From Candidatus Hikarchaeia archaeon HikBin5 (GTDB lineage: Archaea > Halobacteriota > Halobacteria > Halobacteriales > Hikarchaeaceae): DNA of 55,489 bases. Location: NCBI GenBank assembly GCA_009889625.1, contig WTZU01000006.1, positions 1 to 55,489 on the forward strand. Reading direction: 5' to 3'. The notes under the pieces were generated by a model. The model saw only the letters and a list, made by a program, of their open reading frames with translations, did no database searches and was not told the DNA's origin. The position numbers and the translations under genes were made by a program. Below, in pieces: positions 51,650-55,477 of the stretch (position 1 is the stretch's first letter; every line of letters starts with the position of its first letter).

Positions 51650-52471
51650 ATGGATTCTATTTTTAATCAAGATCTGGATTCCACACTCCAAACAATTTTT
51701 TTGGAAAATAAAGGGCAAATTTTCGTAGTTGGTCCCTCACAAAGATTAATTGCATCTCTGGCCAGTTTATTATTCTCCATTGCTACTCCCCCTTCTGTTA
51801 GGATATTATCTGATTTTTCTGCCATTAAACAAGCCACGAGCGATTTTATTACGGCCGCTTATCTATCGGATCTATCTGCTGTTGGGACCTTGGAACTCAG
51901 AACTGTAGAGATCTTGCCAACAAGTGATCTACTGTTGACTAGCAAATCTCTGATCACTGTGATACCTGCTGGAAATTCGACACTAACACTCACCACCCCT
52001 GCTCAACCGATCACAGAAGATGTATACACTTTCTATGATAATTTATGGTCTCAATCCATACCTTTTCATGTTACTACTCCTCCATTGTCAGTTGTTCTCG
52101 ATTCCCTTCAATCCCGCTTTGGAAACAATATCGAATCCGATTTCTCTGCTGCCCTCCCTTCTCTTCGAAAACTCCCTTCGATTTATGATTTCATAGATGA
52201 AGTAGCGTTAAGCTTATTGGTCGGTGCTAGGAACCAACTACTCTTATACGACCTTTCACGTTGGGGAGAAGATATAGGTCTGGCAAGTAGGGCTACCTTT
52301 TCAAGAACTAAACAACTATTAGAACAAATAGATCTAATCACCACCGAAACTGTCCCAGTAAGTGTAGGCCGTCCACGCCTCCGTCTCCAATTAAACCACC
52401 CAAATTTCCAAACTTGCCCGCCTGAAAAATTATTAACCGAAATACTAGAATTGCACCCTCGCAATGAATAA
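51650..52471 (+). CDS. TbsP/DUF5821-like putative regulator
   Basis: 273-aa ORF between valS and YcaO; C-terminal WGEDIGLASRATFSRTKQLLEQIDLITTETVPVSVGRPRLRLQLNH looks like a winged-helix region; placement as in haloarchaeal DUF5821 genes (from memory). Confidence 0.6.
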   Translation: MDSIFNQDLDSTLQTIFLENKGQIFVVGPSQRLIASLASLLFSIATPPSVRILSDFSAIKQATSDFITAAYLSDLSAVGTLELRTVEILPTSDLLLTSKSLITVIPAGNSTLTLTTPAQPITEDVYTFYDNLWSQSIPFHVTTPPLSVVLDSLQSRFGNNIESDFSAALPSLRKLPSIYDFIDEVALSLLVGARNQLLLYDLSRWGEDIGLASRATFSRTKQLLEQIDLITTETVPVSVGRPRLRLQLNHPNFQTCPPEKLLTEILELHPRNE

Positions 52472-52496: not shown

Positions 52497-54248
52497 GTGC
52501 AAATAGGTATCGTTGGGAATGAAAATGGTGCGATTTCCCTCCAATCTACAATCCAACAATTGGGATTTTCCACTACAATTCTTTCTCAAAATTCCATTTC
52601 CTCCTCTGGTTTAAACGAATTTTCCACTATCCTAGCAATTGATCATACTGGGTCCTCTTTATTTGATCAAATAAACAAGAATATAAATTCAATTTGGATA
52701 GCAATAGAACTCGGTGGTGTCGGTGGTTATTCTTTTCCAAAAATAGCTGGTTCCATTTCTATATTTACTCCCAATACGGCATGCTATACGTGCCTCCAAC
52801 GTAGAGTCAAATCCAACCTATCTTCTCTGACCAATTCACCTTCTCAATCACAGAATTCCATTTCTCCAGATTTTGAACCTATAGTTGGATTTATTTCTGC
52901 ATATCTGACAATTCTCATCTCCAACTCTAATATTACACATAGTCATGTTTTTGAAGTTTCAAATTTCTCTGTAGAACAAATTAGAGATAAAAACACCGCC
53001 ACTGTTACACAGAGATTTTTACTTCCCCTCCCTCATTGCCCATCAAATGATCATTGTTTACATTCGCCCGCTTCTGGTACTCCCTCAGAACGAGCAGAAT
53101 ACGCAATCGATGAACGTATTGGGATTATTAATACAATTTCTGAAGCAGAGTCATTTCCAGCGCCATATTATCTATCGAATCTCTGCGAAACAAATTCTTT
53201 CTCTTCTCAATCTGTGAAAAAACAAGCAGCAGGAGTGGCTATCAATTGGGATGATGCCTTTATGAAAACAGCAGGAGAATCTCTGGAGCGATATAGCTCT
53301 GGAGTTTATAATTCCAATTCGTTTATATCTAGTTCTGCCTCCCACCTCGAAAATTCAATTTCTCCTAATTCTTTTGTACAGCCCACCCCCGATCTTTACC
53401 AAGACGAATTAATAGATTGGATCTCTGGAGTTGACCTCTGCTCTAATAAAACTGTTTACTTACCTGCTGAGTTTTCCATATTTCCTCCGCCTTCTGAATA
53501 TTATAAACCGGCAATAACCACTGGCCTTGCAATAGGAAATACACTCATAGAAGCTCAACTTTCAGGCCTCTATGAAGTCATTGAGAGAGATGCAACTATG
53601 CTCTCTTGGTATTCTACAAATCCGCCCCCTGAATTCCTCCCCGATTCTCCCGATTTTGATCTCTTATCTCGAATGGCTAGTTCCCAAGGGCTTGCAACTA
53701 CTGCACTGCTGGTGACTCAGGATATAGATATACCTATAGTCACTGTCGCTGTCCATCGATCTTCTGAATGGCCAAACTTCGCTGTTGGTTCTTGTTCAAA
53801 TATAGACCCAAATAAAGCCGCGATTGGTGCTCTTTGCGAAGCGTTACAAAATTGGATGGAATTACGTTCTATGGGCCTTGACATCGCAAATAATCAACCA
53901 TCCTCTATAGGCTATTATTCTAGCTTTCCCAAAGATGCCAAATCTTTTCTAAATGCTAGTAATTCCCTTCTACCCACTGACATTGATACTCCCCTCTTTT
54001 CAGACTCATCTGAAGAATTATCTTTTATCATAAATCATCTAAATTCATCAAACTTGTCGGCATATTCGATTAGACTTACTCCTCTTGACATAGCTACTAT
54101 CGGATTTGAATCCGTTCGCATAGTTATCCCTGAAGCACAGCCTCTTTTCTTTGGGAAGCCCTTCTTTGGAACTCGAGCGAGAAATGTTCCCCCTTCTCTC
54201 GGCAATTTTAGATCTAGACTAGACCGATCTCCGCATCCCTATCCTTAG
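52497..54248 (+). CDS. YcaO-domain cyclodehydratase with N-terminal ocin_ThiF-like partner region
   Basis: AGESLERYSSG, GLAIGNTLIEAQLSGLYEVIERDATMLSWY, AAIGALCEALQNWMELRS; Cys pairs CYTC and CPSNDHC in N-terminal half; C-terminus ...RLDRSPHPYP. Confidence 0.9.
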   Translation: MQIGIVGNENGAISLQSTIQQLGFSTTILSQNSISSSGLNEFSTILAIDHTGSSLFDQINKNINSIWIAIELGGVGGYSFPKIAGSISIFTPNTACYTCLQRRVKSNLSSLTNSPSQSQNSISPDFEPIVGFISAYLTILISNSNITHSHVFEVSNFSVEQIRDKNTATVTQRFLLPLPHCPSNDHCLHSPASGTPSERAEYAIDERIGIINTISEAESFPAPYYLSNLCETNSFSSQSVKKQAAGVAINWDDAFMKTAGESLERYSSGVYNSNSFISSSASHLENSISPNSFVQPTPDLYQDELIDWISGVDLCSNKTVYLPAEFSIFPPPSEYYKPAITTGLAIGNTLIEAQLSGLYEVIERDATMLSWYSTNPPPEFLPDSPDFDLLSRMASSQGLATTALLVTQDIDIPIVTVAVHRSSEWPNFAVGSCSNIDPNKAAIGALCEALQNWMELRSMGLDIANNQPSSIGYYSSFPKDAKSFLNASNSLLPTDIDTPLFSDSSEELSFIINHLNSSNLSAYSIRLTPLDIATIGFESVRIVIPEAQPLFFGKPFFGTRARNVPPSLGNFRSRLDRSPHPYP

Positions 54249-55477
54249 ATCCCAAGAACTGCCCTCAAAAGATCTCGTATACCCGGACCTAGTCCTACTG
54301 CAATTATCACAATTACAAGTAACATAGTCCAACTAGGATTGGCGTCCATTGATTCTTTATCGAAGATATAAATCACTAATGTTGCAGCTACTATTTTAAC
54401 CACTAAAAACAACCAAGCAGTGCCAATCAAACTTGTTATCCAATCGGGAAATTGAGATCCTATTTCTACTAATCCTTTATTAACAGGGTGTTTTGGTACT
54501 AGGTTTCGTTGCATACCTCCTGTCAGTCTATATACCCAATCTATGCCAACCACATTTGCCACTCCATCTAAAATTTGAGACCACAAAATAACCAATCCAA
54601 TTTCCCCAACCCCACTCGTAATTTCCCACCCTTTTTGATTTATAAACCACCACATCCCACCCGTAATGATGGTAGTACTAACTAGTACGACAACTGCTAT
54701 TTCCCAATACACTTGGATGTAATCTCGTGAGATAACAAGCCAACCCAGATACCCCAATATAGAACCGAGGAGTATTACTCCAATTCCCACTAGACTTTGA
54801 TCATATCTCTTAACAAGTCCCATCTCTTCTAATTTTACAGAACATAGTATTGCCATCAGCGTGATCACGAACATCGTCCCATATATTACTGGACTTATTA
54901 ACAATATATTAAGTGGATAACTAACAGTAGCTTCTATACCTATTGGGACAATGTCATTTGCATCTTCAACCACTCTGAGCGCCCCTCCAAATAACATATA
55001 AGGAATCAATGAAAAAACTAGTTGTTTATCTAGGGTGATTCCTATCTTTAAGAATATTTTTGCCACTACAAAAAGCAACAATATCAGTGCAATCGCATAC
55101 CCAACTTCAGATACATAAGTATACCCTGGATATGCTATTATATCTTCTACCCCTGGGCACATGTTTGTGTATGGTAAAACTTCAAAATCCCGGACGATTC
55201 CCATCCCCAATCCCGGAGGGGGAGAAACCCCCTTTACAGCACAAGCCGATCCAGTTGCATCTGCAAGTATTGGGCCCCAAAAGTAACGCCAAAAGATGTC
55301 ATATATGGTTCCTCTAAATATTATACATGGCATTAATACAATGGAAATTAAAGCAATTTTGAACCTCATCGACCACGATCCTATATCCCCCCATCTATCC
55401 ACAAGAAATTTTAATTTCCCATCTTCTGTAGGTTTCATAATAGTTCTACTTAGATACTTTTTATTTGATTTCAGCAA
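54245..55477 (-). CDS. DUF63 family integral membrane protein
   Basis: 410 aa, multiple TM helices, RVVEDANDIVP and DPSW/QILDGVANVVGID patterns typical of DUF63. Confidence 0.85.
   Translation of the reverse strand: MLKSNKKYLSRTIMKPTEDGKLKFLVDRWGDIGSWSMRFKIALISIVLMPCIIFRGTIYDIFWRYFWGPILADATGSACAVKGVSPPPGLGMGIVRDFEVLPYTNMCPGVEDIIAYPGYTYVSEVGYAIALILLLFVVAKIFLKIGITLDKQLVFSLIPYMLFGGALRVVEDANDIVPIGIEATVSYPLNILLISPVIYGTMFVITLMAILCSVKLEEMGLVKRYDQSLVGIGVILLGSILGYLGWLVISRDYIQVYWEIAVVVLVSTTIITGGMWWFINQKGWEITSGVGEIGLVILWSQILDGVANVVGIDWVYRLTGGMQRNLVPKHPVNKGLVEIGSQFPDWITSLIGTAWLFLVVKIVAATLVIYIFDKESMDANPSWTMLLVIVIIAVGLGPGIRDLLRAVLGI

Follow-up and report, generated by a model that had tools for sequence, protein, structure and literature searches.

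The window, a stretch of 55,489 nt, encodes an intact YcaO protein, and the locus raises the question of what such a protein modifies and by which chemistry. The original prediction described a self-contained cyclodehydratase whose substrate would be either a distant precursor peptide or a housekeeping protein. The evidence assembled here indicates that the core YcaO of haloarchaea probably has an ordinary cell protein, not an antibiotic peptide, as its target, and gives roughly even chances that it works as an ATP-dependent backbone cyclodehydratase with a housekeeping protein as substrate. The family occurs in nearly every haloarchaeal genome examined and is filed as an antibiotic-peptide enzyme, a label against which this evidence argues; if the proposed activity is correct, archaea would possess a novel type of protein modification in the form of an azoline on a cellular protein.

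Domain architecture and family membership

The YcaO domain was confirmed by a PF02624 match over residues 247-547 (E 5e-45; 154.6 bits against a cut-off of 25.7), and the ATP/Mg residues typical of the superfamily are present. The TOMM SagD model TIGR03604, named earlier as a check, matches residues 246-583 over its full length to the last model position, scoring 217.4 bits, 1.9 bits under the curated cut-off of 219.25. The model for the McrA thioamidation protein (TIGR03266) reaches 86.7 bits against a cut-off of 365. Conservation was scored over 46-48 orthologues, in which the key residues of the three ATP/Mg blocks (Table 1), correctly recognized at the outset, are invariant or nearly so. 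The HPYP terminus likewise stands as first read: the family tail is HP[YF]P, and the PHPYP of the window protein amounts to a C-terminal PxPxP-type motif, although the full PxPxP is absent in some orthologues and only HPxP is common to all. A proposed tetrad of N-terminal cysteines holds for three of its members, since C181, like the first pair, is found in 48/48 orthologues, but the fourth shifts: position 183 is Cys in 41/48 orthologues and Ser in the window protein, and no other sequence has Cys at the column of the window's C187.

Table 1. Features of the YcaO locus, in window coordinates (the coding region of the fused protein includes its stop codon)
Feature	Coordinates	Strand	Remarks
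Fused E1-like/YcaO protein	52497..54248	+	583 aa, GTG start; orthologues in 54/59 relatives
N-domain, residues 1-225, truncated E1/McbB-like fold without RRE	52497..53171	+	Foldseek and profile matches
CYTC (C96, C99), invariant Cys pair, putative Zn site	52782..52793	+	48/48 orthologues; falls on the Cys-x-x-Cys region of MoeB and TruD in alignment
CPSNDHC, with invariant C181 and a fourth Cys whose position is not conserved	53037..53057	+	Orthologue alignment
YcaO/SagD catalytic domain, residues 246-583	53232..54245	+	Profile matches, whole-chain model
ATP/Mg block 1, ESLERYSSG (E264, R265)	53277..53303	+	Invariant
ATP/Mg block 2, GLYEVIERDA (E360, E363, D365)	53565..53594	+	Invariant
ATP/Mg block 3, GALCEALQNWME (E448, Q451, E455)	53826..53861	+	Invariant
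C-terminal HPYP, exact protein end	54234..54245	+	H580, P581, P583 in 48/48; HPxP end in 0/11 bare-type YcaOs sampled
TbsP-family regulator, 25 nt upstream of YcaO	51650..52471	+	PF23336/PF19138; conserved gene pair
DUF63 membrane protein, convergent, 4-nt overlap with YcaO stop	54245..55477	-	PF01889

That the N-domain is partner-like is borne out by structure. An AlphaFold model built from 44 sequences (pLDDT 82, pTM 0.82) finds its best solved matches in MusD (7u58; Foldseek E 8e-7) and in McbB, the E1-like chain of the microcin B17 synthetase McbBCD (6grg; E 5e-4). Profile searches recover MoeB (E 1.8e-4) and LynD (E 1.4e-4), and place the first Cys pair on the Cys-x-x-Cys of MoeB. The whole-chain model (pLDDT 91, pTM 0.92) matches LynD, MusD and TruD. 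Neither the profile alignment nor the N-domain structure matches revealed a leader-binding RRE; position 11 of the N-domain profile aligns with TruD residue 126, and hence the RRE is missing from the chain. 'Self-contained' is therefore only partly apt: the E1-like and YcaO domains are fused in one chain, but that chain lacks the RRE found in TOMM partners. Cyanobactin heterocyclases (LynD/TruD) and MusD share the one-chain architecture and the ATP/Mg residues, but they start with an RRE and their substrates are leader peptides from RiPP clusters, neither of which applies to the window protein.

A short E1-like domain N-terminal to a SagD-like YcaO, with no RRE, is the architecture of the haloazolisin-type fusion found across haloarchaea, and the window protein forms one clade with the haloarchaeal copies (support 94/91; grouped in 96% of bootstrap trees). 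It is thus a member of this published family and not a new type of enzyme (PMC4603692, PMC9953058). The haloarchaeal fusions were named haloazolisin enzymes in 2015, when the absence of the RRE was already noted (PMC4603692). A 2023 study reported ycaO in all haloarchaeal genomes, with a gene context that gave no convincing cluster, and obtained a viable Haloferax mediterranei deletion with normal viable counts and an FTIR profile altered in lipid-related bands (PMC9953058). Literature searches on SagD in Haloferax and on DUF63 in archaea returned nothing on the haloarchaeal core YcaO. The enzyme itself is essentially the same in the window; this copy differs in its displaced fourth N-domain Cys, in adjoining ValS where the haloazolisin-type comparison locus has SHMT/folD, and in coming from a small-genome, low-GC lineage. 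The source genome (70.5% complete, 1.07 Mb) has a single YcaO and the window a GC content of 39.6%. Small size and low GC are in keeping with Hikarchaeia, whose genomes are about 1.2 Mb with 40-42% GC (PMC7599335); since family f1 is nested inside the other families on a long branch of the aEF-2 tree, this assignment is tentative. Added here are the 54/59 distribution, the split from accessory YcaOs, the TbsP-YcaO/DUF63 gene order, the absence of TfuA from 59 genomes and of SagB from the window's genus, the missing RRE, the grouping with azoline-forming YcaOs by HPxP end and tree, and the likely null clade f9.

Distribution, descent and gene neighbourhood

The five relatives without the full-length fusion comprise all four genomes of family f9 and one genome that is 78% complete. 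A repeat search with a profile again found no YcaO in the f9 genomes (G011, G026, G037, G047), which likely represent a natural null clade for the enzyme. TbsP occurs in three of these four genomes, with no YcaO or linked DUF63 nearby. In a phylum-wide sample, all 43 same-order genomes among the matches listed carry the fused form, a few of them split into two matches; outside the order, the matches listed contain only YcaO domains without an E1-like domain.

On the YcaO tree, family labels need 19 changes, against a minimum of 16 and a shuffled mean of 31.9. Sequences thus group by genome family far above chance, which fits mainly vertical descent. YcaO is under purifying selection (pairwise dN/dS 0.11-0.34), yet its rate of change exceeds that of ValS and, for most of the compared pairs, that of TbsP, with the N-domain changing fastest. 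In the aEF-2 tree, the earliest split within the order sets off a group made up of f9 and f11. The YcaO of f11 is the most divergent one and also sits at the base of the YcaO tree, and loss in f9 is consequently the simplest reading. A clade of all YcaO carriers on aEF-2 is not rejected (AU p 0.109). Two aEF-2 frames are unusually long, at 1288 aa (L147, G011) and 1161 aa (L140, G010) against the usual length of about 730, and the G011 match falls into separate parts, a pattern that an intein would give.

Gene order in the window is Gnd-ValS-TbsP-YcaO-DUF63, with gaps of 49, 67, 25 and -4 nt, so that a precursor gene does not fit between these genes; the earlier observation that precursor, dehydrogenase and exporter are all missing nearby was right. 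The TbsP-like regulator and DUF63 are nevertheless informative, both being conserved gene-order partners. In 28/41 loci (12/16 families), TbsP is found immediately ahead of YcaO in the same orientation, its frame often overlapping or almost touching that of YcaO in the loci compared, and in 24/41 loci (13/16 families) DUF63 is the convergent gene downstream. The TbsP-YcaO pair facing DUF63 is an old gene arrangement. For f15, weak paralogues of TbsP take the upstream place. According to work cited in PMC13286277, TbsP regulates transcription and acts on gapII in Haloferax volcanii. At locus L047, the order is folD, SHMT, a 686-aa protein, TbsP and YcaO; judged by this order, TbsP may be what PMC9953058 lists as a 'protein of unknown function' immediately preceding ycaO. 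The 686-aa protein itself (L047:11730-13787), which adjoins TbsP, has no Pfam match, and nine families have a homologue of it some 3 kb ahead of YcaO; its C-terminal part looks like a candidate CHAT-protease-like domain.

Both neighbours were considered as partners of the enzyme. Genomes G014 and G039 (99% complete) have YcaO without TbsP, which therefore cannot be its obligatory substrate or partner, and f9 has TbsP without YcaO; given that each occurs without the other, neither depends on the other. A dedicated role for DUF63 is not supported, as it is present in 59/59 relatives, f9 included, and also in methanogens. Usually two DUF63 paralogues are present, and the best f9 and f11 copies have clearly higher Pfam-model scores than the YcaO-linked copies. 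A search of TbsP and DUF63 for an invariant Cys as candidate target found none, and a few invariant Ser/Thr only.

Chemistry and substrate

The chemistry is best approached through the C-terminus and the YcaO tree, which took in ten bare-type YcaOs from other families of the phylum. These ten form one clade (100/100), with the universal form, SagB-linked accessory forms and the TOMM-like YcaO of G073 on the other side of the tree. An HPxP end is found in 48/48 universal and 3/3 accessory proteins, and in none of 11 bare-type proteins; the G073 protein ends PHPFL. PxPxP is a motif of azoline-forming YcaOs (PMC12338566). Judged from sequence, tails and tree favour placing the core YcaO with azoline-forming enzymes rather than the methanogen thioamide type, and azoline as its product.

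In the proposed mechanism, the YcaO domain would bind ATP and Mg2+ and phosphorylate a backbone amide oxygen of the target protein; the side chain of an adjacent Cys, Ser or Thr may then attack the activated amide to give an azoline. By analogy with TOMM cyclodehydratases, the C-terminal HPYP would reach into the active site. The N-domain would be a remnant of an E1-like partner without a leader-binding RRE, so that what is recognized is probably a folded housekeeping protein; E. coli YcaO, which recognizes folded uL16 (PMC13063428), could serve as a model for such RRE-less recognition. Of the two substrates first proposed, it is the housekeeping protein for which retention, near-universal and mostly vertical, speaks, as does the Haloferax mediterranei deletion, which keeps its antihaloarchaeal activity (PMC9953058). 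Counting against a cyclodehydratase acting on a housekeeping protein are the fast evolution of YcaO and its N-domain, unlike that of an enzyme with a frozen substrate, and the viability of the deletion. A vertically inherited backbone azoline that this enzyme installs on a housekeeping protein throughout a whole archaeal class, a modification distinct from both thioamides and RiPPs, is put forward only tentatively.

The original haloazolisin idea, in which the enzyme installs azolines on a precursor peptide encoded elsewhere, is unlikely. It draws on the HPxP end, the clade shared with SagB-linked accessory YcaOs and the precursors proposed for 31 haloarchaeal clusters (PMC4603692), and an unlinked precursor is conceivable given that the genome is incomplete. 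Set against this are the missing RRE and the lack of a precursor gene in the gaps beside the enzyme, as well as Haloferax precursor candidates that are dissimilar or stop-interrupted, with antihaloarchaeal activity not lost on deletion (PMC9953058). SagB dehydrogenase was detected in 16/59 genomes and an RRE, searched as the PqqD type, in 12/59; SagB, TfuA and PqqD-type RRE are all absent from the four genomes of the window's genus. As these are 58-78% complete, simple arithmetic puts the chance of missing a universal gene in all four at about 1%.

A TfuA-independent thioamidating enzyme, with the backbone of a housekeeping protein as the site of sulfur insertion, is distinctly improbable. The known protein targets of YcaOs are indeed thioamides (McrA, PMC5589413; uL16, PMC13063428), and the methanogen and E. 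coli enzymes, which share the YcaO kinase fold, act on proteins rather than peptides. TfuA is absent from 59/59 genomes in a search whose control was positive in Methanosarcina acetivorans, but thioamidation need not depend on it, because E. coli YcaO modifies uL16 without TfuA (PMC13063428). Weighing further against thioamidation are the HPxP end, the split from the bare clade and the fused E1-like partner domain, which the methanogen YcaO lacks and in place of which E. coli YcaO has a TPR domain. Some other activity, whether ATP-dependent amide cleavage, macroamidine formation or a scaffold role, is very unlikely: MusD 7u58, among the best structural matches, was deposited as 'YcaO-mediated ATP-dependent peptidase activity', but the data examined hold no sign of cleavage, and invariant catalytic residues and HPxP oppose a pure scaffold.

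The preferred reading, a cyclodehydratase acting on a housekeeping protein, is testable, with f9 as a natural control and the viable Haloferax deletion available. If the source belongs to Hikarchaeia, the small proteome (genomes of about 1.2 Mb) narrows the candidate targets.

Accessory YcaOs and a compact TOMM cluster

SagB was also considered as the missing dehydrogenase of the core YcaO, and is rejected on account of its patchy distribution and its position beside a second YcaO where loci were checked. In the three loci examined (L093-L095, in G010 and G032), this second YcaO is 23-24% identical to the universal form and ends PHPYP or PHPIP. Such accessory TOMM YcaOs share the SagD-type domain and the PHPxP end with the core enzyme; they differ in their SagB neighbour, rarer and patchy occurrence, plasmid-borne similar proteins and separate clade. 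A search of the plasmid collection gave one record with query coverage of 80% or more, and the other best matches are partial (23-29% identical). YcaO-like proteins of comparably low identity occur on haloarchaeal plasmids (Haloplanus, Halorubrum). A compact TOMM cluster was also found in the same phylum, in G073 of family f28 (L169:8889-11736). It combines a SagB dehydrogenase (TIGR03605, 142 bits), a discrete SagD-type YcaO above the TIGR03604 cut-off and two short ORFs whose starts resemble leaders and whose ends are rich in Cys and Gly (MNNKSNIELEDVNLEDVKEQT..., MKNVNIEDLKEQILE...).
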